A stretch of DNA of 18,372 bases from an uncultured Eubacteriales bacterium (GTDB taxonomy: Bacteria; Bacillota; Clostridia; Peptostreptococcales; Anaerovoracaceae). Position numbers and translations under genes: made by a program. The notes beneath the pieces are model-generated. The model was given only the letters and a program-made list of their open reading frames with translations, was not told the origin of the DNA and did not search any database. Positions 1 through 18,372 of this stretch are shown one piece after another. Each line of letters begins with the position of its first letter. Position 1 is the first letter of the stretch. The stretch is from NCBI GenBank assembly GCA_902765035.1, contig CACWYF010000018.1, forward strand, positions 1 to 18,372, in the 5' to 3' direction.

Positions 1-209
1 AGCGGAAAGACTCTCCTGGCAGCGTCCGGCTCTGCTGACGCCGCTTTGCCGCGGGAAAGAGACGTGGACTTATGAAAGCACCTGCATCTGACTGAAAGCA
101 GCGGGCGGGGAAAGGCTGCATCTCACAACAGGCGTAAACAGCGGACAGTCTGCTGGCATGGCTGCTTCTTTGCCGGGCTGCGGAGATTCGCGATGCCGCG
201 GGCCGCCGC
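1..209. other. GC-rich left-edge segment, no recognised gene
   Basis: This stretch is visibly more GC-rich than the adjacent lpd coding sequence. I recognise no product in any frame. The lpd reading frame crosses into it on the minus strand and stops at 123 after about 28 residues that do not resemble dihydrolipoyl dehydrogenase. I also read one other minus-strand frame without finding the missing C-terminal half. It may be the far side of a recombination or insertion point, or a wrongly joined contig end. Confidence 0.5.
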
Positions 210-944
210 CTTCTGCTCGATCTTCTGAACAGGTGAGCTGACATGAACATCAACGCCCTTCTTTTCGAGGGTCATCTTGATGCTGCGGCCGATTTCCTTG
301 TCGATAACAGGGAGGAGTCTGTCCATTCCCTCGATGACTGTTACGTGATCGCCGAGGTCAGCATAGATGGTTGCGAACTCGATTCCGATAACGCCTCCGC
401 CGATGATGACGAATTCAGGGATCTCCTCTGCGCCCATGTCGAGGAGCTCTGTGCTGTCGATAACGCCCGGAAGGTCTGATCCAGGGATCGGCGGCATGAA
501 TGGCATTGAGCCTGTAGCTACCATTATCTTGTCTGCTGTGACGACAGCGGTGCCGCCTACAGAATTGGTGATAACGACTGTGTTCTCACCGCTGATCGTA
601 GCGGTTCCTTCGAGAACGTCGATCTTTTTCTTCTTGAGAAGTCCGGAGATACCGCCTCTGAGGGTATCGAGTACTTCGTCTTTTCTCTCTCCGATTCTCT
701 TGCGGTTGGCATGGAGTCCTTCTACTTCAACACCTACCTCAGCACCGTGAGCTGTATCGCGGTAAACATCGGATGAATGCATCAGAGCCTTGGTAGGGAT
801 GCAGCCTCTGTTCAGGCATGTGCCGCCGACTTTGTCCTTCTCAACAACAGCAACTTTCATACCAAGTTCCTGTGCATAGAATGCTGCTTCATATCCTCCC
901 GGACCTGCTCCGATGATAAGGAGATCATACTGGAAATCACTCAT
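123..944 (-). pseudogene. lpd: Dihydrolipoyl dehydrogenase (E3/L protein), truncated
   Basis: Lpd is the FAD enzyme that re-oxidises the dihydrolipoyl arm of GcvH with NAD+. The start is the ATG at 944, preceded by AAAGGAAG at good spacing; an upstream in-frame ATG at 1010 adds 22 unrelated residues. Visible are the FAD-binding GAGPGG (residues 12-17), the redox disulfide motif GGTCLNRGCIPTK with Cys43 and Cys48, the ATG turn near 143, and the NAD-binding GGGVIGIEF near 182. Homology stops at about residue 245, whereas the family is usually about 460-470 residues. The last 28 residues are foreign. The rest of the NAD domain, the central domain and the interface domain with the catalytic His-Glu pair are missing, so this copy cannot be functional as read. 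It lies downstream of lplA, as expected for a glycine cleavage cluster. A real truncation and an assembly break at the window edge look the same here. Confidence 0.85.
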
Positions 945-1058
945 TATAGTTCTTCCTTTCTTGGTTAATAAGCTGATATACGGACCCGCTCTCCTGCAAG
1001 ACCGGAGCATGCAGATCCTTTGGTTATCATATATGAATCTCTTGCCCTTAACGTATCT

Positions 1059-1088
1059 ATTTTCTCAATTAAACACGCCCCGTGTCAA
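1059..1088 (-). promoter_or_regulatory. Candidate lpd promoter with overlapping inverted repeat
   Basis: On the minus strand a perfect TTGACA (1083-1088) is followed after 18 bp by GAAAAT (1059-1064), a four-of-six match to the -10 consensus. An inverted repeat, ACACG-GGG-CGTGT (1073-1085), overlaps the -35 box and spacer, where a repressor could act. The leader to the lpd ATG would be about 105 nt. The weak -10 box keeps confidence modest. Confidence 0.4.
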
Positions 1089-1183
1089 TAGTGAACAGGG
1101 TGTATTTTGTTATTGTATTAACAAAGAAACTATTTGCAGCTCTGTGGGGTGCTGCGCAGGATGATGCACAGGTCAGACAGCGG

Positions 1184-2209
1184 TCATTCCACAGAAGATG
1201 CAATGAGCTCGAGTATCTCATAGCCGGCTGCGGATGCGCCCTGAGGGAGCCTCAGGCCGAGTATCTCGGATGCGTCGTACTTGCAGCCCGGAAGCAGCTC
1301 TTCGATCTGAGGGAAGAGGTCTGTCTCAAGAGAGTCCGAGTAGAGGCGGCATGAGTCTATGTACTCTCCGCGCATATCGAGCTGGATCTCGACTCCGCCC
1401 CAGTCAAAACGGTGTTCTATCACCTTGCTGAACGGGATCCTGGTGCCGAGACGCCACTCTTCGGACGCGTATTTATCCTTAAGTTCCTGAGGGATCTCCG
1501 GCAGCTCTGCCTGAACGGCGCTGCAGCCGTACTCTCTTTCGGCAGCCCTTACGAGTGCATCCTGCATTTCGCGGACAGCCTTCTTCGTACGGGTCTTCTC
1601 AGACGTTTTGCCCGCCGGACCGCATATCTTCTTAAGGCGGTCCTCAGGGATCTGATCCATCAGGTTGGTCACGCGGGACTTCACGGATGCGACGCCCTTG
1701 GACTGCAGCTTGGACTCGGAGACGTTGAGATATCTCGGCAGATCATCGCCGGAAACGTTCATCATGATAGTCCCGTGATGATAGTTAAAGCCGTGCGAGG
1801 AGTAGTAGGCGTGGCCTGAGAACTTCTTCCCGTCGGCTGTAAGGTCATTGCGGCCGGTCTTCTCGGCGCTGATGCCCATAAGCCTGCAGGCGAGAAGAAT
1901 GACGTCGGTCTGCCTGCTGATGTCGTAGAGGTCGTCGCGGGCTATGAATGTAAAATTCAGGTTGCCCATGTCGTGGTAGACGGCACCGCCGCCGGACATG
2001 CGTCTTGCGAGGTATACGCCGTCGGCCTTGATCTGCTCGACATTGCACTCGCGCCACGGATTCTGGTTCTTTCCGATGACGACTGTGTGCGCGTTCTGCC
2101 ACAGGAAGAGTATCATCTCGTCTTCTTCCGCGTGGAAGGTGAGATACTCCTCAGCTGCGAGATTGTCGTACGGATTGGTGCAGTCGGTTCTGATTACTGT
2201 TAGTTTCAT
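1184..2209 (-). CDS. lplA: Lipoate-protein ligase A
   Basis: LplA activates free lipoate with ATP and attaches it to the acceptor lysine of lipoyl proteins; here the obvious acceptor is GcvH, encoded in the same cluster. The 341-residue protein has the catalytic N-terminal domain with RRMSGGGAVYHDMGN (about 69-83), and the KFSGHA motif with the likely catalytic Lys129. A C-terminal accessory domain follows from about residue 250, so it is the full two-domain form. It starts at the ATG at 2209 (MKLTVIRTDC); no strong Shine-Dalgarno is visible, only a distant AAGAGA. It has its own promoter and is separated from gcvPB by a hairpin. With no lipoyl synthase in view, the cluster suggests lipoate scavenging, but LipA/LipB could lie elsewhere. 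Confidence 0.93.
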   Translation of the reverse strand: MKLTVIRTDCTNPYDNLAAEEYLTFHAEEDEMILFLWQNAHTVVIGKNQNPWRECNVEQIKADGVYLARRMSGGGAVYHDMGNLNFTFIARDDLYDISRQTDVILLACRLMGISAEKTGRNDLTADGKKFSGHAYYSSHGFNYHHGTIMMNVSGDDLPRYLNVSESKLQSKGVASVKSRVTNLMDQIPEDRLKKICGPAGKTSEKTRTKKAVREMQDALVRAAEREYGCSAVQAELPEIPQELKDKYASEEWRLGTRIPFSKVIEHRFDWGGVEIQLDMRGEYIDSCRLYSDSLETDLFPQIEELLPGCKYDASEILGLRLPQGASAAGYEILELIASSVE

Positions 2210-2250
2210 AATTGATCAAAGTGTTCTCTTAAGTGATATCGTATTTGCCT

Positions 2251-2279
2251 AATATAGCATTCATCACAGATAACTGCAA
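2251..2279 (-). promoter_or_regulatory. lplA promoter
   Basis: On the minus strand TTGCAG (2274-2279) and TATATT (2251-2256) are separated by exactly 17 bp. A TG sits one base before the -10 box, giving an extended -10. This predicts a leader of roughly 35 nt before the lplA ATG at 2209. Confidence 0.65.
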
Positions 2280-2313
2280 CCTTCGAATGGTTTAGTCAGC
2301 TGTGACAACAGAT

Positions 2314-2343
2314 AAGGGGCGACATGAAATCATATCGCCCCTT
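2314..2343 (-). terminator. Terminator hairpin after gcvPB
   Basis: A perfect 9-bp inverted repeat, AAGGGGCGA / TCGCCCCTT, has a small inner ATG/CAT stem and a 4-nt loop. It sits about 30 bp past the gcvPB stop. On the minus strand the bases after the stem are only moderately T-rich, so it may be leaky and allow some read-through into lplA. Confidence 0.65.
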
Positions 2344-2372
2344 CTTTCTGAATTGTGGATCTGCCGCGGTGC

Positions 2373-3788
2373 CTAGAACTCGTATCTCAGATGCGGTTCT
2401 CTTGCAGCCTTGGTGTCATCAAGTCTCAGTACCGGTGTGGTCTGAGGTGCCATCTGTACGCTCTCAGGCGCATTGAAGATCCTGTCGTAGATCTCGCGGA
2501 ATGCCTCGATGGCTTCGTCCAGAGTCTCCTTCGTCTCTGTCTCGGTAGGCTCGATCATGAGAGCCTCGTGTACGATCAGAGGGAAGTAGATTGTAGGCGG
2601 ATGGATGCCGTAATCGAGGAGTGCTTTCGCAACGTCCAGAGCAGAAACGTGAGTCTTTCTGTAGATCGGATCGAGGCCGATTACGAACTCATGCATGCAT
2701 GTGGTATCGAATGCGATCGGATAGAGATCCTTGAGCTTCTCCTGCATGTAGTTAGCGTTCAGTACAGCATTCTCTGCAATTGTGTGAACATCCTTGCCGA
2801 TGGTCAGGAGGTATGCATATGCCTTGACCATTACGAGGAAGTTGCCGTAGAAGCCGGTCATGTTTCCGATGGACTTCTCAGCTCTTGCATACTCGCCGTC
2901 CCTGCATACGAGGCCAGGTGCGAACGGTGCAAGGAAATCCTTGTATGCGCATGGGCCGCTGCCAGGACCGCCGCCGCCGTGAGGTGTCGAGAATGTCTTG
3001 TGCAGGTTCATGTGGATTACGTCGAATCCGATGTCTGCAGGACGTACGATACCGATTACAGCGTTCAGGTTGGCTCCGTCATAGTAGCAGAGTCCGCCTG
3101 CTTCGTGGACGAGTCTTGTGATCTCCATGATGTTAGGGTCAAAGAGACCTACTGTGTTAGGGTTAGTCAGCATCAGGCCGGCGGTCTTAGGTCCGAGGTG
3201 AGCCTTGAGGTCGTCAAGGTCAACAGTACCATTCTCGTTCGACTTGATAACTACTGTCTTGTAGCCTGCCATTGTTGCAGAAGCAGGGTTGGTGCCGTGT
3301 GCAGCATCAGGTACGAGGATCTCGCTTCTCTCTGTATCACCTCTGTCGGTGTGATAAGCCTTGATCAGAAGGAGTCCTGTGAACTCGCCGTGAGCACCGG
3401 CAGCAGGCTGGAATGTAACGCCGTCCATGCCTGTGATCTCGCAAAGCATCTTCTCGAGGTCAGCGATCAGTGCGTTGGCGCCCTCTACTGTATGTGCAGG
3501 CTGGAGAGGATGGAGTTTTGCAAAACCAGGGAGGTTTGCCATCTTCTCGTTGATTCTAGGGTTGTGCTTCATTGTGCAGGAGCCGAGAGGATAGAATCCG
3601 TCGTTGACTCCGTGAGCTCTCTTGGCAAGTGCTGTGTAGTGTCTGCCCATCTCGTTCTCCGAGATCTCAGGGAGATGTACTTCAGCCTTGCGGAGCTTGT
3701 CCTCTGCAGGGAGTGCTACAGGAACATCGCATGCAGGGAAGATATCTTGTCCTCTACCAGGAATGCTCTTCTCGAATATTAACTTCAT
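2373..3788 (-). CDS. gcvPB: Glycine dehydrogenase (decarboxylating) subunit 2
   Basis: This is the PLP-binding half of the split P protein. It decarboxylates glycine and, with GcvPA, moves the aminomethyl group to the lipoyl arm of GcvH. The 471 residues are close to the usual family length. Visible are the glycine-rich GFYPLGSCTMKHNPRINE (64-81), the DAAHGTNPAS block (161-170), and the PLP-lysine segment NLHKTFSTPHGGGGPG with Lys264. The ATG at 3788 lies one base after the gcvPA TAA. Its Shine-Dalgarno AAAGGAGGTG is inside the last codons of gcvPA, so the two subunits are very likely translationally coupled and made in equal amounts. It is the last gene before a terminator-like hairpin. Confidence 0.96.
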   Translation of the reverse strand: MKLIFEKSIPGRGQDIFPACDVPVALPAEDKLRKAEVHLPEISENEMGRHYTALAKRAHGVNDGFYPLGSCTMKHNPRINEKMANLPGFAKLHPLQPAHTVEGANALIADLEKMLCEITGMDGVTFQPAAGAHGEFTGLLLIKAYHTDRGDTERSEILVPDAAHGTNPASATMAGYKTVVIKSNENGTVDLDDLKAHLGPKTAGLMLTNPNTVGLFDPNIMEITRLVHEAGGLCYYDGANLNAVIGIVRPADIGFDVIHMNLHKTFSTPHGGGGPGSGPCAYKDFLAPFAPGLVCRDGEYARAEKSIGNMTGFYGNFLVMVKAYAYLLTIGKDVHTIAENAVLNANYMQEKLKDLYPIAFDTTCMHEFVIGLDPIYRKTHVSALDVAKALLDYGIHPPTIYFPLIVHEALMIEPTETETKETLDEAIEAFREIYDRIFNAPESVQMAPQTTPVLRLDDTKAAREPHLRYEF

Positions 3789-3789
3789 C

Positions 3790-5133
3790 TTAGAACACCT
3801 CCTTTGCGATAGCTATGACTTCATCGATATCTTCTTTCGTGTTGAGCTCTGTGCAGCACCACAGGATGCAGTCTGTGTCGCAGTCATTGTCGCAGCAGCC
3901 GCAGCAGACCTTGAGTCCGCCGAGGATGCCCTTCTCTTCGAGAGCTGCGAGCAGCTTGTCTGCGTCCGGGCATGTAGTTGTGAACTCGTTCCAGAACTCG
4001 CCTTCGAAGCAGCGCTTCATGCCGATCTTTTCGAGCTCAGCTGCCATGTAGTGAGCCTTGGATGAGCAGAGTGTTGCGACCTGCTCGAAGCCCTTAGGGC
4101 CGATGGTCGACAGATAGATGCCTGCACGGAGTGCGCACCATGCCTCGTTGGAGCAAACGTTGGAGCTTGCCTTCTCGCGGCGGATGTGCTGCTCTCTGGC
4201 CTGGATGGTGAGGACAAATCCTCTGTCTCCTCTGGTATCTACGGTCTCACCGATAAGTCTTCCAGGGATCTGGCGCATGTTCTCCTGCTTAGTAGCAAGA
4301 AGTCCGAGGTAAGGTCCGCCGAATTCAAGGCCGAGGCCGAGAGGCTGTCCTTCACCTACTGCGATGTCAGCGCCGATCTCGCCAGGGTTCTTGAGAACGC
4401 CCAGTGAAAGCGGATGAGCATACATGATGAACTTTGCGCCTGCATCGTGAGTGATCTGGCAGAGTTCCTCTGCATCCTCAACGATGCCGTAGAAGTTAGG
4501 ATACTGCATCAGGAAGCATGCTGCTGCAGGGTCCTCAGCGAGTGCAGCCTTGAGTGCGTCCTTGTCGGTAACTCCGTCCTTTGCAGGAATAACGACTACC
4601 TTGCTGCCTCTTCCGAAGGAATAAGTGTTGATTACTGTGAGAATTCTCTCGTCGATCGCTCCGGATACATAGATGGTGCTGTGCTTTCTGTCTTTGCACA
4701 TCCAGCATGCCTCTGCTGCTGCGGAAGCTCCGTCATACAGTGAAGCGTTAGCAATGTCCATGCCCATGATCTCAGCTATCATTGTCTGATACTCGAAGAT
4801 CGACTGGAGGATACCCTGGCTGATCTCAGCCTGGTACGGTGTGTAAGCCGTAAGGAATTCTTCCTTGTTGGCAATTGCGTCGACTGCTGATGGTACATAG
4901 TGGTTGTACGCACCTGCGCCGCGGAAGATCGAACGGAAAATGACGTTCTTGTCTGCCAGTCCTTCAATAGCGCGGTCAACTTCGATCTCGGACTTGCCCT
5001 CAGGCAGGTTGAGCTCGCCTTTTACCTTGGCTTCTGCAGGAATGACTTTAAAGAGGTCGTCGAAATCCTTGTATCCGATCTCGTTGAGCATCTTAAGCTG
5101 CTCTTCCTTGGTGTTAGGAATAAAAGTGCCCAA
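3790..5133 (-). CDS. gcvPA: Glycine dehydrogenase (decarboxylating) subunit 1
   Basis: This is the second half of the split P protein, which forms the active-site dimer with GcvPB. The 447-residue length and the N-terminal IPNTKEEQLKMLNEIGYKDFDDLF segment match the family. The start is a TTG at 5133, preceded by AAGGAGG nine bases upstream; starting at the first internal ATG (residue 15) would delete the conserved IPNT segment. The C-terminal end is unusual. Residues 410-427 hold eight cysteines in 18 residues (CCxCC, then C, C and CC), followed by the expected TELNTKEDID tail. GcvPA proteins do not normally carry such a patch, and I know no role for it. Upstream is a long intercistronic hairpin separating it from gcvH. 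Confidence 0.95.
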   Translation of the reverse strand: MGTFIPNTKEEQLKMLNEIGYKDFDDLFKVIPAEAKVKGELNLPEGKSEIEVDRAIEGLADKNVIFRSIFRGAGAYNHYVPSAVDAIANKEEFLTAYTPYQAEISQGILQSIFEYQTMIAEIMGMDIANASLYDGASAAAEACWMCKDRKHSTIYVSGAIDERILTVINTYSFGRGSKVVVIPAKDGVTDKDALKAALAEDPAAACFLMQYPNFYGIVEDAEELCQITHDAGAKFIMYAHPLSLGVLKNPGEIGADIAVGEGQPLGLGLEFGGPYLGLLATKQENMRQIPGRLIGETVDTRGDRGFVLTIQAREQHIRREKASSNVCSNEAWCALRAGIYLSTIGPKGFEQVATLCSSKAHYMAAELEKIGMKRCFEGEFWNEFTTTCPDADKLLAALEEKGILGGLKVCCGCCDNDCDTDCILWCCTELNTKEDIDEVIAIAKEVF

Positions 5134-5161
5134 TTTTGTCTTCCTCCTTACAAATGCAAAA

Positions 5162-5208
5162 GAGCCGCTGCAGCGTTACGGCCGAAACGACCGGAAGCGT
5201 CGCGGCTC
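5162..5208 (-). terminator. Attenuator-like hairpin between gcvH and gcvPA
   Basis: A perfect outer stem, GAGCCGC (5162-5168) with GCGGCTC (5202-5208), encloses a shorter GC-rich inner stem around CGG/CCG. On the minus strand the stem is followed by TTTT and another T-rich run. It lies in the 115-bp gap between gcvH and gcvPA. It could partly terminate transcription or protect the gcvH end of the mRNA, giving more H protein than P protein. Confidence 0.6.
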
Positions 5209-5248
5209 AACGTATTAAAATCGTCGAATGCTGCTGTCTGAGGGGTTA

Positions 5249-5617
5249 TTATCCTCTGTACTCATCGTATTCGTCAGCGCTGATCAGCTCAACTGTATCG
5301 GAAATGTTTCCAACCTTGATGAACCATGCGCCATAAGGATCGCTGTTGATGAGCGAAGCGTCATCGAGGATGTCCTCGTTAACTTCGAGAACTTCTCCGG
5401 AAATCGGGGAGTAAACATCAGCTACAGCTTTAACAGACTCAACGTCACCAAAAGGCTCGCCTGCTACGACCTCATCGCCTACCTCAGGAAGGTTAACGAA
5501 TACGAGGTCTCCGAGCTCGCTCTGAGCGTAATCTGTAATGCCTACATAAGCATCATCCCCATCATAACGGAGCCATTCATCGTCTCTTGAGTACTTCAGT
5601 TCTTTTGGGTCAATCAT
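5249..5617 (-). CDS. gcvH: Glycine cleavage system H protein
   Basis: GcvH is the lipoyl carrier that shuttles the aminomethyl intermediate between the P, T and L proteins. It has 122 residues, normal for the family. The lipoylation segment [15 protein letters not shown] (58-72) carries the acceptor Lys63, and the SGEV and [11 protein letters not shown] segments are also typical. The ATG at 5617 has an AAGGAG site upstream. It is the first gene of the operon, about 80 nt behind a strong promoter. A gcvT gene often precedes gcvH in Clostridia but is absent here: the sequence upstream is promoter, then the divergent cvpA. Confidence 0.97.
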
Positions 5618-10098: not shown

Positions 10099-11541
10099 TT
10101 AGAGATTGGACTCTGTGTATTCTTCAAGCTCGGTCTTGATCTCGATCTCCTGGCCGCTTCTGCTGACTACGATCGTTACGACGTCACCGGCTTTGTGCTT
10201 CCTGACTGCGGCTACGAACTGCTGTGATGAAGAGATCTCTTCACCGTCAAGGGAAACAATGCGGTCCTCTGACTGGAAGCCGGCCTTCTTCGCGTTCTCG
10301 CCCGTTACCTGTGTGATGTATACGCCTGCTGACTCAAGCTGGTAGTAACGTGCGGTGTCCTCGGACACATCTGCAATCGTGACACCGACTACAGGTCTTG
10401 TCGATACATTACCATTCTCTATAATGTCATCAATATCGTCGACTACTGAGTTGATAGGGAGTGCAAATGCAAGTCCCTCGATGCCTACACCGGAACTCTT
10501 GGCATCTACGATACCGATCAGTTCGCCCTTGCTGTTGAAGAGTCCGCCGCCGGAGTTTCCGCCGTTGATCGCTGCGTCAGTCTGCATCAGAGAAAGAGTA
10601 CGTCCTTCGATAGTAAGGTTTCTGTCAAGCGCACTGATGATTCCTGTCGTAGCTGTACCGCCGAGCTGGCCGAGCGGGTTACCGATAGCAACCGCGGTAT
10701 CACCGACCTCAACTGTGCTGCTGTCGCCCACCTTTGCAGGCTTAAGGTCATTGGCGTTGATCTTGATGACAGCGATATCCATGTCATTGTTGCCGCCCAC
10801 GATAGAAGCCGGGTAAGTCTCGCCGTTGTGAAGTGTTACCTGCACTTTATTGGCGCCCTGTATTACATGGTAGTTCGTCACTATATATCCATCTTTGCTG
10901 TAGATGACGCCTGAACCGGCACCTTCGACCGGCTGCATCTGTCCGAAGTAGCCCTGAGCGTTTCCGGAAACAAGGATCTCAACTACAGAGTCCGCATTCA
11001 TGTCAACGATCTCGGAGATGGTGAGGTCGCTTCCGGTAGCTTCACTGATGGACTTGGACGATGATCCGCCGTCGGTCGCAGGTGAGGAAACGATACCTGT
11101 TTTTCCGCTGCTGAGAGCTCCGCCTATCAGACCGCCAAGAACCGAACTGACAAGCATTGTCAGTACCATGCATACTGCAAGGGCGCCCTTGGTGACATAT
11201 CTCGGATCGCGGGCAGACTTATTTTGTCTGCTGGTCTTGACTGCAGCATGCTTGCTTACGCTGTAGTCTGCCTGTGGAGCAGCTGCTTCATGAGGCACTG
11301 TACCATGAGATACATCGCCGGACGAGCCGTACTCTGCCTCGATTTTTTCAGCAAGATAATCACCTGTATCTGCGCCTGCGCCTGTGTCTTTGTAAGGCCT
11401 GACCTCAGGCTTTACTTCCTGCGGAATCTCCACATCAACGCGGAGCTCGTCCTGCCCGGAAGCAAAACCGCTGTTCTGCGATATCTTTTCAGGTTCCGGA
11501 TCTCCTCCGAAAGTTACTATTGTTCTGTCTTTTTCATCCAT
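10099..11541 (-). CDS. HtrA/DegP-family membrane-anchored serine protease
   Basis: This is a trypsin-like serine protease with a PDZ domain, of the type that handles misfolded proteins outside the membrane. It has 480 residues from the ATG at 11541 (MDEKDRTIVTF, AGAGGA-like site upstream). An in-frame ATG at 11592 would place an AAAGGAGG inside the coding sequence. Layout: acidic cytoplasmic region (1-115), one transmembrane helix (about 119-145), Ser/Gly-rich linker, then the protease domain with His225 (NYHVIQGA), Asp255 (NDMDIAVIK) and Ser330 (NGGNSGGGLF). A C-terminal PDZ domain follows from about 385 (RPVVGVTI, GVYITQV, DRIVSLDGEEI). The catalytic triad is complete. The long cytoplasmic N-terminus resembles Firmicutes HtrA/HtrB/YyxA proteins. 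It is a single gene, convergent with gntR. Confidence 0.95.
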   Translation of the reverse strand: MDEKDRTIVTFGGDPEPEKISQNSGFASGQDELRVDVEIPQEVKPEVRPYKDTGAGADTGDYLAEKIEAEYGSSGDVSHGTVPHEAAAPQADYSVSKHAAVKTSRQNKSARDPRYVTKGALAVCMVLTMLVSSVLGGLIGGALSSGKTGIVSSPATDGGSSSKSISEATGSDLTISEIVDMNADSVVEILVSGNAQGYFGQMQPVEGAGSGVIYSKDGYIVTNYHVIQGANKVQVTLHNGETYPASIVGGNNDMDIAVIKINANDLKPAKVGDSSTVEVGDTAVAIGNPLGQLGGTATTGIISALDRNLTIEGRTLSLMQTDAAINGGNSGGGLFNSKGELIGIVDAKSSGVGIEGLAFALPINSVVDDIDDIIENGNVSTRPVVGVTIADVSEDTARYYQLESAGVYITQVTGENAKKAGFQSEDRIVSLDGEEISSSQQFVAAVRKHKAGDVVTIVVSRSGQEIEIKTELEEYTESNL

Positions 11542-11928
11542 AATATATATCCTCTGTGCGGCCGGCGATCTCTGGCCGCAGCCTCCTTTCATTTACCTTT
11601 TTCAGAATCTGCGGCAGTACAGTCTCATCGCAAATCTGCAAAGAGTTTCCTGCAGCTGTATTCTCCGTCAAATTCCTTAAACTGACTTTAAAACTTCATC
11701 AGTCTGTTCAGTCCGGATAATATCCACATAATTGTACACCAAATATATTAATCGTGAAATATGTCATTGTTGTGTTGCTGAGGGCAAAAGACGTAATTAT
11801 GTTGGTTTACAGGCCGCATTATCCTATGATTGTCGGATTTCTATCGGGGCGGAGATGCTTTAACATAATATCAGATTCAGATGGAATGGATCGGAAACAG
11901 ATATTCCGGATAAAAAAGGAGGATTATT
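11542..11928. other. Intergenic region between htrA and the small protein gene
   Basis: This AT-rich region of 387 bp separates two divergent genes. It should hold both promoters. For htrA (minus strand) TTCACG (11753-11758) and TACAAT (11731-11736), 16 bp apart, are a weak candidate. For the small gene, see the separate entry. The short open frames here do not look like genes. Confidence 0.4.
11802..11830 (+). promoter_or_regulatory. Candidate promoter of the 71-residue protein gene
   Basis: TATGAT (11825-11830) is one base from the -10 consensus. It lies 17 bp after TTGGTT (11802-11807), a poor -35 box. The leader would be about 90 nt. Confidence 0.35.
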
Positions 11929-12144
11929 ATGGCACTTTCATTAGATTCCAAGATCAAGGACATCATGAGATCACCTGAGGGCAAGGCTGTTATGGAAAAG
12001 TGGGCACCTGGCTCAACGTCAGATCCAAGAATGAAGCTGGTAGGCGCACTGACATACCGCAAGCTGCTGAGCTATCCTGAATCAGCTGAGGTAGCTGTTC
12101 ATGCAGATGAGATCGATGCAGATCTGAAGGCATGCTCAAGATAA
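11929..12144 (+). CDS. Small orphan protein with a clostridial DPRMKL-type domain
   Basis: This 71-residue soluble protein has no signal peptide or membrane helix. It is very likely real: AAAAAAGGAGG stands six bases before the ATG, codon use matches the neighbours, and a strong hairpin follows. The sequence (LDSKIKDIMRSPEGKAVMEK, then APGSTSDPRMKLVGALTYRKL) recalls a short helical domain that I remember, with limited certainty, as a C-terminal appendage of larger clostridial enzymes, here standing alone. I cannot name a function. Its neighbours, a divergent htrA and a convergent PucR-type regulator, do not indicate one. Confidence 0.8.
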   Translation: MALSLDSKIKDIMRSPEGKAVMEKWAPGSTSDPRMKLVGALTYRKLLSYPESAEVAVHADEIDADLKACSR

Positions 12145-12154
12145 TATAGCATAA

Positions 12155-12210
12155 TAAAAAGAGGGCTTCGCATCCGGGCTTTGATATAAGCCGGTGCGGG
12201 CCCTTTTTCT
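12155..12210. terminator. Bidirectional terminator between the small gene and the regulator
   Basis: An imperfect GC-rich stem built from GAGGGC and CCGGGCTT with AAGCCGG and GGGCCC is flanked by AAAAAG on the left and CTTTTTCT on the right. The symmetric A and T runs fit termination in both directions between two convergent genes. Confidence 0.75.
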
Positions 12211-12221
12211 GTGTGTTTATT

Positions 12222-13763
12222 TCAGTTCAGTCTCATGAGTTCCTCAATGCTCATCGCTTTGAGAAGGATCTCAAGCTGAAGTCTTCTGTCCGAATCCCGC
12301 AGATCTATTCCGAGTTCCCGCTCGATCCTTGATATACGGTCTATGAGTGTTGACCGGTGAATATAAAGGCGTTTTGCTGTAGCGGTATATGACATGTTCT
12401 CCTCCAGAAAGGCTGTAAGTGTCTGAAGGTATGAGATGCCGCCGTCCTTGTCGTGTTCAAGAAGTGAGGCAAAACCGGCCGGGTAGTACGCTTCAGGCGG
12501 AAGGCCGCCAAGAGAGTTGATGACCATTTCCGTGAGAGCGTAGCTCTCAAAATAGAAAAGAGTTCCCTGAGGCGCCAGCAAAGTGCCGTTTTCTGAAGCG
12601 GATCTTGCCTGGAGATAGTAGACGCGGATGCTGAAGATATCTGAAAACTCATTGGATATGCCCGCGTACATTCCCATCTGTTCAGCAAGATGACGGAGCT
12701 TCTCATTCAGCACAGGGAGGTATTCTGACGGCTGGTCCTGGGCGGCAGAACAGAGCCTGCCTGTATTGATAAATGCAAGGACAGCATTGTCATGTATGAA
12801 AGCCGGGGAATCAGCAAAGGTATCCTCAAGTATGTCACAGATGTATGAAAGAGGAAGCTGGTTGTTCATTCTGTTGAACCGGAGATACACGCATCTGTAT
12901 ACAGTCATTTTGTTGGAGCTGTTAATGAGCAGTCTCTGCGAATAGGAAAGAGGCTGCTCTTCGACCAGATTCTGCATCGCCTTACGGATCGAGGAATCCG
13001 GATCATAAAGAACGGAAGGGTTTCGCTCCATGGCGGTCTGAAGGCACTTTGCAAGAAACTCGGCAAGTGCACTGTCCCCATCAGAGAAATCATCGTTTTC
13101 ATATGCAACAACCAGACAACCGATATACTGGTCATACTTGCTGAAAAGATTGACACAGAGGGACCTGTTGCCATAGATGTTGACCTTTAATGCGCTTTTT
13201 TCATTGGTTCTGAGGTCTGATGCTGACAGGAATTTTGACAGGGATTCAGCGTTAAGCGTTCCGGTCCCGGTGCTTGCCCATGCCGACTCCTGGAATACAG
13301 CCGTGCTTGTGACCACTTTGAATGACTTGTCCAGCAGATACAGCGGCCGCCCGAATATCTCTGATGAATCGGACAACAGCTTTTCTGCATCAGGAGATGA
13401 GATAAGATCATTCAGCAGAGTATTCTCCCAGCTGTCGTACTTGTCGTAAATGCTCTGCAGCAGCTGGTAAACCTTGAAGAAGTCACTCCTGCTTTTTATT
13501 GTAATGAGGCACAGATTATCTCTGTAATGATTCAGAGTAAAATTCTCGCCGATACAGACGAGAACACAGTCTTCCTGTATGCGCGGCCGCTGGGGAAGGT
13601 GTTCGACCGTTGCGAGGTAGAGATGTCCGGACTGAAATACGAACTCACTCTCCATGTAGAATTCAGGACGGGATATTGTAAGGGATTCATTCCTCGGACC
13701 GGAGATATCCGCGTTATAGTGACGCGTGAGTTCCCTGTATATGATATCTGCGTTGAGCTTCAT
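12222..13763 (-). CDS. PucR/CdaR-type transcriptional regulator
   Basis: This 513-residue regulator has a C-terminal PucR-type helix-turn-helix (about 450-510: LTAFLEENMSYTATAKRLYIHRST, then the DRISRIERELGIDLRDSDRRL segment). A long N-terminal and central region is likely to sense a ligand, but no certain domain is recognised there. The ATG at 13763 (MKLNADIIYREL) is preceded by AAGGAGTG; an in-frame ATG at 13823 would add 20 unrelated residues. Regulators of this type usually activate catabolic genes for compounds such as purines, amino acids or sugar acids when substrate is present. It is transcribed divergently from the dehydrogenase/GcvT-like operon across 267 bp, so that operon is its probable target. 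Confidence 0.88.
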   Translation of the reverse strand: MKLNADIIYRELTRHYNADISGPRNESLTISRPEFYMESEFVFQSGHLYLATVEHLPQRPRIQEDCVLVCIGENFTLNHYRDNLCLITIKSRSDFFKVYQLLQSIYDKYDSWENTLLNDLISSPDAEKLLSDSSEIFGRPLYLLDKSFKVVTSTAVFQESAWASTGTGTLNAESLSKFLSASDLRTNEKSALKVNIYGNRSLCVNLFSKYDQYIGCLVVAYENDDFSDGDSALAEFLAKCLQTAMERNPSVLYDPDSSIRKAMQNLVEEQPLSYSQRLLINSSNKMTVYRCVYLRFNRMNNQLPLSYICDILEDTFADSPAFIHDNAVLAFINTGRLCSAAQDQPSEYLPVLNEKLRHLAEQMGMYAGISNEFSDIFSIRVYYLQARSASENGTLLAPQGTLFYFESYALTEMVINSLGGLPPEAYYPAGFASLLEHDKDGGISYLQTLTAFLEENMSYTATAKRLYIHRSTLIDRISRIERELGIDLRDSDRRLQLEILLKAMSIEELMRLN

Positions 13764-13813
13764 GGGTAACACTCCTTGTTCTGTACCGTCAAAATGTAGG
13801 ACTCTTGTTAATA

Positions 13814-13822
13814 ATAATAGCA
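13814..13822 (-). promoter_or_regulatory. Candidate extended -10 promoter of the PucR-type gene
   Basis: On the minus strand TGCTATTAT gives an extended -10 element (TATTAT at 13814-13819, TG at 13821-13822), about 45 bp upstream of the regulator's Shine-Dalgarno. No good -35 box is present 17 bp further up. For the divergent operon I could not choose a promoter with confidence; activator-dependent promoters often lack a clear -35 box. Confidence 0.4.
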
Positions 13823-14030
13823 AAAAAGACGGGCCGGCGGGAGCATTTTAGCGCGAAATATTAAATCCCCATCAACTTCGCTGTAACAGGCTCCCTGATA
13901 CCGACATAAAGTGGACAGAAGGCCTCAAAAAACCTCCGATTGTTGTATTATCGCAGGCCCGCAGCTTCAAGTAATATATCAGTGTCAACATTATTATAAA
14001 GAGGAAGTAGGTCAAAGGAGGGACTCTATT

Positions 14031-14936
14031 ATGGCTTTCACAGAATCTGATAAAGCAATGCTTGAGGGTTATATCGCATCCGCCCGCCCGTTTGCCGACA
14101 TGTTCTCGGTAAAGGGTAAGGTAGCACTTGTAACCGGAGGATCGTCCGGACTTGGATTTGATATCACTCTCAGACTCCTGCAGGGAGGAGCAAAGGTAGT
14201 TATCGCATCCAATTCCAGGATCGAAGAAGAGGCATCCATGCCGCTGTTCGCTGAGCAGGGCTTCGGAGATGATGTAAAGTTCTGCTTCACAGATGTAAGA
14301 GAGGAAGCAGACGTTGAGAAGCTGGTGGCATATACAGTTGACACTTTTGGCTCGCTGGATATTTTCGTCAACAGCGCTGCGATCTGGAATTATGCAAAAG
14401 TCTATGATCTGCCTAAGGAAGACCTCCAGCTGGTATTCGAAACCAACGTATACGGTGCTTTCTACGGAGTCAAGCACGTAAGCAAGTATATGAAGGAACA
14501 CGGCATCGCGGGCAAGATCGTGCTGATCTCTTCAAACAGCCCGATAATGCCTTATCCGGTATTCGGAGGATATCCGCACTATGCATCAAGCAAGGCTGCT
14601 GTCATGGGACTTGTGACAGAGGCTGCAAAGGAGCTCAAGAGATACGGAATCATGATCAACAGCATTGCACCGGGCGGAATGGTCACCCCGGGTGCCGCAG
14701 GAAATCTCGCGAGCGAGCTTATCACTGAAGAACAGCAGGATGAGTTCTATGAGGAACTGATGGTATGGCAGGTAGACGGCCAGCTCCCTGTAGATCAGGT
14801 CGGAATGATGGCTTATACATTCTGCACCCCTGTTGCAGACGGGATCACAGGTGAGACCATCGTTGTAGACGGCGGCGCGACACATAATATCGTTAAGTAT
14901 CAGGCTGCTATCGACGCATTCCCAGAGGAAGAATAG
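14031..14936 (+). CDS. Short-chain dehydrogenase/reductase (SDR)
   Basis: This 301-residue NAD(P)-dependent oxidoreductase is of the classical SDR type. It has the cofactor-binding TGGSSGLG (35-42), VNSAAI (113-118, in place of the usual NNAG), Asn139, Ser168 and the catalytic YASSK with Tyr184 and Lys188, then IAPGGMVTP and the C-terminal GETIVVDGG. A 25-residue N-terminal extension precedes the Rossmann fold, and about 20 residues follow the usual end. The ATG at 14031 has AAAGGAGGG eight bases upstream. It is the first gene of a three-gene operon with 13 and 11 bp between genes (by the starts chosen here). The substrate is unknown; the context suggests oxidation or reduction of an alcohol/ketone intermediate in a one-carbon-releasing pathway. 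Confidence 0.9.
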   Translation: MAFTESDKAMLEGYIASARPFADMFSVKGKVALVTGGSSGLGFDITLRLLQGGAKVVIASNSRIEEEASMPLFAEQGFGDDVKFCFTDVREEADVEKLVAYTVDTFGSLDIFVNSAAIWNYAKVYDLPKEDLQLVFETNVYGAFYGVKHVSKYMKEHGIAGKIVLISSNSPIMPYPVFGGYPHYASSKAAVMGLVTEAAKELKRYGIMINSIAPGGMVTPGAAGNLASELITEEQQDEFYEELMVWQVDGQLPVDQVGMMAYTFCTPVADGITGETIVVDGGATHNIVKYQAAIDAFPEEE

Positions 14937-14949
14937 AGAGGTGGAAAAC

Positions 14950-16179
14950 ATGGGCAAAAAAATAGACGGAAGAATACCTCAGAATTCCGGCGACGGCGCC
15001 GGTTTCAAGCAGTATAACGCAGTACAGTCACCATGGAACAAGCTTATGTCTTATCAGGATGCGCTCCACTATGCATCCAGATTCGAATCTGTCCTGAGTG
15101 CTGCTGTAGCTCAGGCATACAGGATCATCATTCCTGATTATGCTACAAGAGCATCCGAAATGTGCAAGGAAGCATATGGAAGACTGCTTTATACAGGAAT
15201 GAACTATCCTAATGATGACGGATTCGGCATCCATCCTTTCATGTGCGGATCATATCCGGGTGCACTTATCGGAGACAAGGGCGATGATGCTCTTCTGATG
15301 TGCGGAAGATGCCAGGACTTCGGAACATACAGATGCGAGAAAGAACTCGATGTCTGTGACTGGGACATCTGCGGTTCGGAGCTCTGCCGTGCAACGACCA
15401 TGTCTCTTCAGGGACAGGCAGACGCGACTGCAAGCAGACACCGCAAGGGCCACAAGCTCGACTACATGATGGTAGAAGCCAAGGGCTGCGGGGACAGACA
15501 CTGCAGGATCATCGCAGAGAACAGAGAAAAATACCCTGCACCTGATCATGAACTGTGGGAGTCGTTCGGACCGGCAGTTTCCGATGACTATAAGAAATAC
15601 ACCGAGGAAGAGGACTGTGTATCCGAATCCATGATGTTCAGGGAAGAGTGTAATTACCGTTTTGTCAACGGAACCAACAACGAGACGGATTCGTCGAATC
15701 AGATGGTCAATTTGTCTACAGCTGCATCCCTGTATCTGCTGCCTGCAATCGACAACGCTGTAAAGCTCGAGTATACAACTGCAGAGAATGCTGAATGGAT
15801 CAAGAGGTGCGTACTTGAGGCGGCAGGCAAAGCGATGTTCGGCGAGAGATATGCTATAAAGGCATGCCGAGAGTGGCTCGGCGTACCTGACAGCATCGGG
15901 GAAGACGGCAGAGTCCTCGGCGGAGTTATCGAGATGCTGCTGCAGTCACTGGTATGCGGATATGAGATCGAAGCCTTCAATAAGGATGAGGTCATCTATG
16001 TGATCAACAGAGGCGATCTTGCGATCACCGGAACGCAGTCCCTGTGTGAGGCGCATCTGTACATGTGGAACGGCATGGTCAAGACTCTGGTCAATGCTAT
16101 GTGGTCTGTATGGGAAGAGGATTCGCCTAAGGGCAAGATGAGAATAAAAATCGGCAAGAAGATCGACAAATTCATGTAA
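14950..16179 (+). CDS. Unrecognised cysteine-rich two-lobed protein
   Basis: This 409-residue soluble protein has no signal peptide or membrane helix, and I cannot assign a function. The ATG at 14950 is preferred over the GTG at 14941 because GAGGTGG is then a well-spaced ribosome binding site. Residues from about 75 to 190 are rich in cysteine (MCGRCQ, RCEKELDVCDWDICGSELCR, KGCGDRHCR), which suggests a bound metal or iron-sulfur centre. The ending of that half, a Gly-x-Gly-x3-Cys strand, faintly recalls the ends of the L-2-amino-thiazoline-4-carboxylate hydrolase (ATC_hydrolase) and V4R domain families. The second half repeats the pattern I-x-G-x-x-LC-x-A and a closing basic strand without the cysteines, so the protein may be an internal duplication. 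It is co-transcribed with the SDR and the GcvT-like gene. Confidence 0.8.
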   Translation: MGKKIDGRIPQNSGDGAGFKQYNAVQSPWNKLMSYQDALHYASRFESVLSAAVAQAYRIIIPDYATRASEMCKEAYGRLLYTGMNYPNDDGFGIHPFMCGSYPGALIGDKGDDALLMCGRCQDFGTYRCEKELDVCDWDICGSELCRATTMSLQGQADATASRHRKGHKLDYMMVEAKGCGDRHCRIIAENREKYPAPDHELWESFGPAVSDDYKKYTEEEDCVSESMMFREECNYRFVNGTNNETDSSNQMVNLSTAASLYLLPAIDNAVKLEYTTAENAEWIKRCVLEAAGKAMFGERYAIKACREWLGVPDSIGEDGRVLGGVIEMLLQSLVCGYEIEAFNKDEVIYVINRGDLAITGTQSLCEAHLYMWNGMVKTLVNAMWSVWEEDSPKGKMRIKIGKKIDKFM

Positions 16180-16190
16180 GGAGGACTGCG

Positions 16191-17213
16191 ATGAATAAGA
16201 ATATTTTTGCACATGACGAATGGAAACGTTCAGAGCACATGGCAGTCAGGGAGTGTGTGGGATACTATCTGTTCACCCATCAGATCATGGAGGTTACCGG
16301 ACCGGATGCCTGCAGATTCCTGGATTACATGTACCCGAACAATATAGCGAGCCTTGCTGTCGGCAGGGACAGATATACCACGATGCTCAATGATGACGGC
16401 GAAATAATCGATGACGTTGTTATCATGAGGCTCGAAGAAGATAAATACTGGGTGTCCACACTTTACGGAACACAGGCAGATGACTGGTTCTATTTCCACT
16501 CGGAGGATTATGACGTGGATGCAAGCGAGATCACTGATGAGTGGCACATGTTCGCAGTACAGGGACCGAAATCAAAGGATGTCATGAACAGCATTCTGGA
16601 AGGGAACGTTGATGATCTGAAGTTCTTCATGCATAAGTGGGATAAGCTCGGCGAAGCAGAGGTGCTGGTAAACCGCGGCGGATTCACAGGAGAGAAGTTC
16701 GGATATGAGGTATACTGCAATGCTGATGATGCTGATGCGGTACAGGACGCAATTGATGCAGCAGTCAAGGCAGCGGGCGGGAAGGAAGTTACAGAGTTCC
16801 AGGTATTTGCATGGACACTTCCTACCGAGGCGGGATTCTATTACATGAGAGATCTCGGCCACACCAATCCGTTCGAAGTCGGACTTGAGAAGAACATCAA
16901 CTGGGACAAGGACTTCGTCGGAAAGGCTGCTCTTGAAAAGGTCAGAGAGAACGGACCTGCAAGAGAAATGGTGGGCTTCGAAGTCTGTGATGAATGCGAG
17001 GACTTCTATATCACATCCAAGCAGTATGGCGGGCCGGGAGAGCCGGTCTATATCGACGGTGAAGAGATCGGCCGTGTATCCAAGCTGGTATATTCATATG
17101 TGAAGAATGTAAACAACGGATATATCCTTGCAAAGAAGGACGAGCTTCATATCGGTGATAAGATCAAGATCCACGGATATGACTGTGTGATCACGGAAAA
17201 GAAGTGGCTGTAA
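16191..17213 (+). CDS. GcvT-fold, folate-dependent aminomethyl/methyltransferase-like protein
   Basis: This 340-residue protein belongs to the aminomethyltransferase (GcvT/DmdA/LigM/sarcosine oxidase) superfamily. It keeps MLNDDGEIIDDVVIM (65-79, whose aspartates match the GcvT catalytic Asp region), FAVQGPKSKDVM (121-132), NRGGFTGEKFGYEVY (161-175), TEAG (212-215) and NPFEVGLEKNINWDKDFVGKAAL (226-248). It departs from true GcvT: the N-terminal FDVSHMG block is missing, the usual LRLEAG is LPTEAG, and the C-terminal region is short. This fits a demethylase-type relative acting on another substrate and passing a one-carbon unit to THF, but acting as the missing T protein of the gcv operon is not excluded. 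GGAGG directly after the previous stop serves the ATG at 16191. It ends the operon before a terminator and lies upstream of fhs. Confidence 0.85.
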   Translation: MNKNIFAHDEWKRSEHMAVRECVGYYLFTHQIMEVTGPDACRFLDYMYPNNIASLAVGRDRYTTMLNDDGEIIDDVVIMRLEEDKYWVSTLYGTQADDWFYFHSEDYDVDASEITDEWHMFAVQGPKSKDVMNSILEGNVDDLKFFMHKWDKLGEAEVLVNRGGFTGEKFGYEVYCNADDADAVQDAIDAAVKAAGGKEVTEFQVFAWTLPTEAGFYYMRDLGHTNPFEVGLEKNINWDKDFVGKAALEKVRENGPAREMVGFEVCDECEDFYITSKQYGGPGEPVYIDGEEIGRVSKLVYSYVKNVNNGYILAKKDELHIGDKIKIHGYDCVITEKKWL

Positions 17214-17230
17214 TACTGACGAAATAAGAA

Positions 17231-17280
17231 TAACTCCGCTCCGTTCAGATTTCTGTCCGAAGCGGAGTTACTTTTATTAT
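17231..17280 (+). terminator. Terminator after the GcvT-like gene
   Basis: A perfect 10-bp inverted repeat, TAACTCCGCT (17231-17240) with AGCGGAGTTA (17261-17270), is followed by CTTTTATTAT. It closes the SDR operon 17 bp after the stop codon. Confidence 0.85.
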
Positions 17281-17515
17281 GGTGTCTGGGGAAAATGTAC
17301 GGAATGCCTGAACGGCATCTGAGAATGACGAACAGGATTGCGGTTTTTCCTCATGCGGTTCGGAAATTCAGCGTATTACTGAAAAGAAGACATGATTCAT
17401 CAAAAAAGGGTCACAATACGTTCTTTTAACCATTGTAAACATCTGATAATATAAAGTCTGCACGGATATGACAATCAATTTATCAGCCTAAGAATGTACC
17501 GCAGGAGGGAATGAT
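17281..17515 (+). other. Leader region of fhs
   Basis: This 235-bp non-coding stretch lies between the terminator and the fhs start. It contains a short ATGCC/GGCAT hairpin near 17303-17317, then the candidate fhs promoter. I see no riboswitch fold that I recognise, including the known THF riboswitch classes, although I could not run a covariance search. Confidence 0.4.
17425..17452 (+). promoter_or_regulatory. Candidate fhs promoter
   Basis: TTTAAC (17425-17430) and TAATAT (17447-17452) are 16 bp apart, with TG just before the -10 region. Alternative registers (for example GATAAT, 17445-17450) are possible. The leader to the ATG would be about 55 nt. Confidence 0.45.
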
Positions 17516-18372
17516 ATGGCATATAAGACAGATATCGAAATCGCACAGGAATGTGAAAAGAAAAAGATCACTGACGTAGCGAAGGTCGCAGGCATCGATG
17601 ACAAGTATCTCGAGCTGTACGGCAACTACAAGGCCAAGATCGACTTCTCATTCCTTAAGGATAATGCAGATAAGAAGAACGGCAAGCTGATCCTCGTGAC
17701 AGCTATCACACCGACTCCTGCAGGAGAGGGCAAAACCACTACATCCGTTGGTCTTACAGACGGACTCCGCGCGATCGGAAAGAATGCAATCGTTGCGCTG
17801 AGAGAGCCTTCACTCGGACCTGTATTCGGCATCAAGGGCGGAGCAGCAGGCGGCGGATATGCCCAGGTAGTCCCGATGGAGGACATCAACCTCCACTTCA
17901 CCGGTGACTTCCACGCCATCGGCGCTGCGAACAACCTGATCGCAGCCATGCTGGACAATCACATTTTCCAGAGCAACTCCCTCCGCATCGATCCGAAGCG
18001 CGTCACCTGGAAGCGTGCCGTGGATATGAACGACCGTCAGCTCCGCTCTATTGTCGGCGGTCTCGGCGTCCGCACGAACGGCGTGGCCCGTGAGGACGGC
18101 TACGACATCACCGTCGCTTCCGAGATCATGGCGACCCTCTGCCTCTCTTCCTCCATCACGGACCTGAAGGAGCGTCTGGCACGGACCATCGTCGGTTACA
18201 CCTACGACAACGAGCCGGTAACGGTGGGCGATCTGAAGGCCACCGGCGCGGCAGCTGCCCTTCTGAAGGATGCCATCAAGCCGAACCTGGTCCAGACCCT
18301 CGAAGGTACGCCGGCATTTGTCCACGGCGGTCCCTTCGCCAACATCGCCCACGGCTGCAACTCCGTCATGGC
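17516..18372 (+). CDS. fhs: Formate-tetrahydrofolate ligase, 5' part
   Basis: Fhs joins formate to tetrahydrofolate with ATP to give 10-formyl-THF; run in reverse it makes ATP from formyl-THF in amino-acid- and purine-fermenting anaerobes. The open frame begins at the ATG at 17516 after AGGAGGG and runs off the window. It encodes 285 residues of a family about 556 long. Visible are the P-loop [16 protein letters not shown] (65-80), [23 protein letters not shown] (near 96-118), [11 protein letters not shown] and [14 protein letters not shown]. The reading frame is intact. From roughly 17760-18000 onward the base composition rises to about 60-65% GC, and every arginine codon I read after about 17970 is CGN, unlike the AGA/AGG-rich usage of neighbouring genes. 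The far part may have a different origin. Confidence 0.96.

Follow-up and report, generated by a model that had tools for sequence, protein, structure and literature searches.

A conserved regulator, dehydrogenase and GcvT-like gene module associated with formate-forming folate genes, with a possible role in one-carbon catabolism by gut anaerobes

What does a GcvT-like protein do in a tight operon with a short-chain dehydrogenase and a cysteine-bearing protein that has no named family, beside a gene for formate–tetrahydrofolate (THF) ligase? The question is raised by a stretch of 18,372 nucleotides (the window) from an uncultured Eubacteriales bacterium of the Anaerovoracaceae (GCA_902765035.1, contig CACWYF010000018.1, here C18), whose genome is 68% complete. 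An earlier note on this DNA had described a PucR-type regulator divergent from three closely spaced genes, with fhs as the next gene, and the coordinates and family matches confirm that layout. The regulator, REG (12222-13763, minus strand), and the dehydrogenase, SDR (14031-14936, plus strand), point away from each other, with a putative promoter region (13764-14030) between their starts. SDR is followed on the plus strand after 13 bases by MID, the cysteine-bearing protein of 409 amino acids (14950-16179), and after a further 11 bases by GCT, the GcvT-like protein of 340 amino acids (16191-17213). The 5' part of fhs (17516-18372, plus strand; FTHFS, E 9.2e-146) starts 302 bases past GCT and runs past the window edge.

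The arrangement is conserved well beyond the window. Scanning a set with a single genome for each species yielded 34 loci with GCT identities of 67-99%. In 30 of them REG, SDR, MID and GCT are arranged as in the window, in order and in orientation, the other four (L003, L017, L022 and L035) being cut by contig ends. Synteny of this kind is far above chance and spans Bacillota and Actinomycetota; carriers include Erysipelotrichaceae, Lachnospiraceae, Anaerovoracaceae, Eubacteriaceae and Coriobacteriia, with Blautia schinkii DSM 10518 and Fusibacillus kribbianus as named carrier strains. Presence is patchy, the carriers being scattered among bacteria of gut and rumen: with the source genome counted, the module occurs in 3/398 genomes of a phylum sample, 4/197 of a family sample and 1/45 of another family. 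Because the Coriobacteriia rows L023 and L033 nest among Bacillota rows in the tree, their position suggests that the module moved by transfer between lineages. Counts were made by tblastn; gene calling in GC-rich loci produced antisense shadow frames. Two genes, the SDR of L019 (3679-4580) and the REG of L149 (~10835-12300), are split between pieces and could reflect errors or decay. No description of this gene set was among the matches listed in a search of the open-access literature, a search that most subscription papers lie outside.

A second subfamily extends the picture. The same-genus genomes G005 and G035 encode MID, GCT and SDR at ~29, 40-42 and 28% identity to the window proteins beside a divergent REG, and the subfamily to which they belong is marked by a MID that is ~30% identical and by the gene order REG divergent from MID-GCT-SDR. 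A class-wide search of Coriobacteriia found MID in 29/386 genomes, including G668, the carrier of L023, and context was taken from 18 of the 28 other matching genomes. REG divergent from MID-GCT-SDR is seen in 15 of these 18 loci; contig ends truncate L137 and L140, and L136 combines REG, MID and GCT with a zinc alcohol dehydrogenase and shows no SDR match. Eleven of the 18 were placed in the tree, where ten fall in subfamily B together with G005 and G035, and L136 belongs to subfamily A, that of the window. MID adjoins GCT in every examined locus whose contig holds both. Genome G545, whose copies match those of L034, has three MID copies, and the third (L080) shows only MID and GCT and no SDR. 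Since SDR was not found in L136 or L080 while the MID-GCT pair persists, MID-GCT looks like the irreducible core, with SDR as its usual partner. A paralogous MID-GCT pair was also seen in L034 (13451-20387, Mogibacterium), together with two SDRs, a zinc dehydrogenase and a hormone-sensitive-lipase-like esterase.

For its proposal the earlier note had named two refuting outcomes: loss of the three-gene synteny, and a GCT lying inside ordinary GcvT. The synteny is kept as described above, and GCT lies outside. Module GCTs form one clade outside GcvT with support of 100/100 in a tree in which close orthologues were thinned to 12 module rows; in a larger tree with both subfamilies, from which eleven more near-duplicate rows were dropped, the module clade is supported at 100/99 and subfamilies A and B at 100/98 each. 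This clade stands apart from GcvT, TMAO (trimethylamine N-oxide)-demethylase-like, sarcosine-oxidase-like and LigM-like rows, with several long outgroup branches whose order is unsure. GCT carries the GCV_T folate-binding domain (E 4.8e-47), and its C-terminal barrel, GCV_T_C, lies under the Pfam cut-off. It stays below the cut-offs of two NCBIfam GcvT models (161.3 of 300 and 137.3 of 235.85 bits) and far below those for DmdA (NF009133, 113.2 of 410), LigM and DesA (NF047885 and NF047633, 64.7 of 580 and 78.5 of 800). The TMAO demethylase model (NF053776), its third best NCBIfam match, gives 136.5 of 1100 bits, with the match confined to the C-terminal part of that model. The equivalent of the catalytic aspartate D97 of Escherichia coli GcvT, D75 (codon 16413-16415, plus strand), is invariant in all 12 module rows of the alignment, as is the E195 equivalent, and most of the residues compared fit a THF-dependent one-carbon (C1) transferase, which GCT probably is. 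That GCT might be the ordinary GcvT of the glycine cleavage operon in the window was rejected: gcvT proper is found on another contig, C6, where it is joined to a serine hydroxymethyltransferase domain, and in the trees GCT falls outside GcvT. A LigM/DesA or DmdA type was rejected on the scores; where LigM-like rows are concerned, the tree also speaks against it. The fused gcvT of the source genome (L001, 1-2235) is one frame of ~900 amino acids, and several same-genus genomes have frames of comparable length at the GcvT match.

The earlier note had also proposed that the one-carbon unit is recovered as formate, and here the neighbourhoods lend support. Of 57 loci, 18 have fhs, fchA and/or folD next to the module: 11 of the 34 (L003, L004, L005, L009-L014, L023 and L036), 7 of the 18 from Coriobacteriia (L134, L135, L139, L142, L143, L145 and L149) and none of five others (L067, L068 and L078-L080). 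Chance linkage would be ~1-3% if one takes 20 kb of a 2-Mb genome, a rough estimate rather than a matched background and one to be read with the fact that related loci are not independent. The folate genes may follow GCT (L003, L004) or come after two more SDRs (L005); they may lie beyond REG, read in the divergent direction, as fhs-fchA-folD (L010) or fchA-folD (L009, L011-L014, L036); and in subfamily B they lie downstream of SDR (L142 and others). Because these are several distinct arrangements and occur in both subfamilies, they point to a repeated association between module and folate genes. Pfam assigned FTCD_C and THF_DHG_CYH to representatives from L004 and L142, and FTHFS to one from L142. 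At genome level fhs is present in 38/39 module genomes, in some as contig-end fragments only, a figure with no background rate to compare. The substrate of FolD is methylene-THF, and since FolD is linked to the module, transfer at the methylene level is favoured over methyl transfer. MTHFR was found in 23/38 module genomes and not found in 15/38, including the 99%-complete G005; we discarded this absence as proof of methylene transfer, since most Coriobacteriia carriers have MTHFR.

MID, the constant neighbour of GCT, gave no match in searches of NCBIfam (E threshold 0.001) and Pfam (E threshold 0.1). Four of its cysteines, C136, C146, C180 and C185, are present in every alignment row that covers them and in 18/18 Coriobacteriia rows; they lie in a CxWDI..SE.C ... 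GCG..HC region (15355-15504, plus strand) that likely binds a metal. A fifth candidate, C72, is kept in the 37 rows covering it and was dropped as invariant, being threonine in 7/18 Coriobacteriia rows. The N-terminal half aligns a C...C...GD..C pattern in this region with V4R and ATC_hydrolase profiles, at probabilities of 11% and 2% in comparisons that used 7 of 9 V4R and 7 of 10 ATC_hydrolase proteins, several of them domain-trimmed, and on this alignment we would call it weakly V4R/ATC-hydrolase-like; the C-terminal half shows a weak resemblance to V4R/TRAPP/H-NOX folds. When 16 MID rows were compared with Pfam at an E threshold of 10, five families were listed and neither V4R nor ATC_hydrolase was among them; at this setting HMMER filters drop most matches above 0.1. 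Weak matches to DM-domain, SAM and other Pfam families (best E 0.031) were set aside as chance, and an internal repeat was rejected since the halves have no profile similarity to each other (E 0.75). A search of MID against plasmids gave no match. The source genome also encodes an ATC_hydrolase-family protein (L082, G000:C44:4355-4789), on a different contig from the module.

What reaction might such a set carry out? We think it quite possible, if short of probable, that it is a regulated catabolic module in which SDR oxidises a substrate and MID and GCT pass a carbon at the formaldehyde level to THF, from which formate and ATP are made. REG, as a substrate-responsive regulator, would switch on the SDR-MID-GCT operon. 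SDR would convert a substrate hydroxyl to a ketone, or handle hydride at that step, and MID, as a metal-site protein, would bind the substrate and release or present its one-carbon unit in the oxidation state of formaldehyde; retro-aldol cleavage of a hydroxymethyl group at the position beta to the newly formed ketone would be one way. GCT, perhaps in complex with MID, would load the carbon onto THF as 5,10-methylene-THF. FolD, FchA and Fhs, whose genes are often nearby, would carry methylene-THF to formate with a yield of NAD(P)H and one ATP. The substrate would probably be plant- or diet-derived. The neighbourhoods do not choose between several conceivable candidates, namely retro-aldol reactions on triterpenoid, lignan or pantoate-like substrates and demethylation of pinitol or methyl-glucuronate. 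A bolder proposal, which we regard as doubtful, is that MID and GCT form a two-protein, oxygen-independent C1-lyase/transferase in which a V4R-like metalloprotein cleaves C1 units from SDR-activated natural products and hands them directly to a GcvT-fold partner on THF, with at least two subfamilies serving different substrates and with gut anaerobes gaining ATP from formate formation. In gut anaerobes, cobalamin methyltransferases are mostly credited with demethylating plant compounds. A second route that runs through folate, with a regulator of its own and an unclassified partner protein, would account for some of the turnover of dietary compounds and of the formate supply in rumen and gut. 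It would also give a role to the MID family, which has none in Pfam or NCBIfam, and the model is open to direct testing, as named strains carry the module.

Several points weigh against this scheme. In 39 of 57 loci no fhs, fchA or folD is linked to the module within the DNA covered, fhs is common in Bacillota generally, and Fhs, FchA and FolD also work in the formate-consuming direction. Methyl-THF as the product keeps some probability because MTHFR is found in 28/30 Coriobacteriia genomes (a few matches weak or partial, and two genomes in both sets) and an S-methyl_trans protein of homocysteine methyltransferase type in 7 of the 15 MTHFR-less genomes. The equivalent of E. coli Y101 is methionine in GCT. 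For MID, the C-terminal half has no profile similarity to V4R or ATC_hydrolase, and the predicted model is poor in the N-terminal half, with a mean predicted local distance difference test score (pLDDT) of 61.6. No transporter common to all loci was seen in the loci examined. Finally, for TMAO demethylase, to which the module bears some likeness, the authors think that the reaction does not need THF (PMC12560246).

A first rival explanation, which we judge unlikely, is a THF-dependent demethylase of the DmdA or LigM kind, in which MID and GCT would move an intact O-, N- or S-methyl group to give 5-methyl-THF and SDR would modify a ring or side chain. The earlier note had pointed to relatives with such methyl transfer. 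GCT retains the GcvT catalytic aspartate, which DmdA and LigM are not known to have, and its scores on the DmdA, LigM and DesA models are a small part of what those models require. The linked genes are those for FolD, FchA and Fhs, and FolD beside the module favours methylene; MTHFR was not found in the 15 genomes mentioned above.

The reversibility of Fhs, FchA and FolD, which serve acetogenesis, would also suit an assimilatory direction, in which these enzymes activate formate, GCT and MID add the carbon to an acceptor and SDR reduces the product, as a sink for electrons or formate; the glycine cleavage system can likewise reverse, as textbooks describe, and gcv genes are present in the window by resemblance. 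Yet the patchy spread, the divergent PucR-type regulator and the paralogues with different sets of SDRs and alcohol dehydrogenases resemble substrate catabolism, and we hold assimilation to be very improbable. A protective function is only slightly easier to credit, and still improbable: free formaldehyde or another toxic aldehyde would be captured on THF, a role with which the linked formate-producing enzymes fit, as does the ability of GcvT to release formaldehyde-level carbon (PMC12560246). The several different SDRs and zinc alcohol dehydrogenases that go with the module copies instead suggest specific organic substrates. Lastly, the GCT fold is common to YgfZ and IBA57, relatives that may work without folate chemistry, and together with the changed Y101 equivalent this could place the trio outside one-carbon metabolism, for example in substrate binding or cofactor assembly. 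Against the retained aspartate and the fit of most other residues compared, such a loss of folate chemistry seems to us very unlikely.

Returning to the catabolic scheme, comparison with known systems indicates where it would belong. The module is probably a further THF-dependent GcvT-like system, with partner proteins of its own: GCT differs from GcvT in having its own clade, in scoring below the GcvT cut-offs and in being accompanied by MID and SDR. With DmdA, LigM and DesA it has in common the GcvT fold and probably THF as acceptor, and it differs from them in model scores and in that LigM/DesA-like proteins fall outside the module clade. The C...C...GD..C pattern of V4R and ATC_hydrolase proteins aligns, at the low probabilities given above, with the N-terminal half of MID, which differs from them in its length and in having no Pfam match. 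TMAO demethylase joins a metal domain and a GcvT-like domain, neither active alone (PMC12560246), and so resembles the module, where a likely metal-site part and a GcvT-like part also belong to one system; in the module, by contrast, these are separate polypeptides, and MID is not a DUF1989 match. BrdA and SesA are GcvT-like enzymes that open the methylenedioxy rings of natural products with THF, and the accessible part of the paper mentions no MID or SDR partner for them (PMC5547118), a separation from the module that is made by description and not by sequence.

Within the window, REG has a longest frame that reaches 13823 and a likely start at ATG 13763 (protein MKLNAD...); its C-terminal HTH_30 match of 69.3 bits against a cut-off of 27 (Pfam) agrees with the C-terminal part of the PucR family, and the N-terminal PucR domain was absent from the three Pfam families matched at E up to 0.1. 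SDR (PF13561, E 4e-43; adh_short/adh_short_C2) bears TGGSSGLG and YASSK, in agreement with the TGxxxGxG and YxxxK motifs of its superfamily, with an N-terminal extension of ~26 residues and a ribosome-binding-like AGGAGG upstream of its start. MID is read from ATG 14950, its longest frame opening at GTG 14941. Between GCT and fhs lies a terminator-like stem-loop (17231-17270, plus strand) with a 10-bp stem; folding of 17215-17290 gave -27.5 kcal/mol (z -4.68, 0/200 shuffles as low), and a consensus terminator scan of the window did not call this hairpin. Because the hairpin separates it from the SDR-MID-GCT operon, fhs in the window is probably its own transcription unit. Identity of fhs to the closest sibling is 96% up to ~17930 and then 74%, and contig C6 of the same assembly bears the sibling-like continuation (96%), so the final ~440 bases (~17930-18372) are probably an assembly chimera at the contig end. 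At the other end of the window, 123-5617 holds a glycine cleavage cluster with gcvH, two gcvP subunits and lplA, named by sequence resemblance, as well as a frame like that of dihydrolipoamide dehydrogenase, which stops early close to the contig edge.

Other genes recur around the module. Two extra SDR types, c12 and c16, occur together in L005, L034 and L144, with c12 alone in L010 and L139 and c16 alone (25% identity) in L079. A zinc dehydrogenase is added in L034, L079 and L136; in L034 and L079 it resembles, with scores that stay below cut-off, threonine and scyllo-inosose dehydrogenases. MFS transporters lie nearby at L079 (one) and L136 (three). The substrate-binding component of an ECF transporter is encoded close to the module in L004 (15798-16370), L005 (9843-10499) and L010 (13191-13709), the Pfam assignment having been made on the L004 copy only. 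In L009 (1108-3933) and L011 (135-2963) the next gene on the strand of fchA-folD encodes a ~941-amino-acid Fe-S/FAD oxidoreductase, with Pfam run on the L009 copy. Finally, LigM/DesA-like genes lie a few kb away from modules of subfamily B, with a second REG-like regulator, in L146 (17239-19901), L147 (13698-15059) and L148 (15038-18020); both in L146 and one of the two in L148 were scored and fell below cut-off, and the calls for L147 and the second of L148 are GCT-profile matches only.

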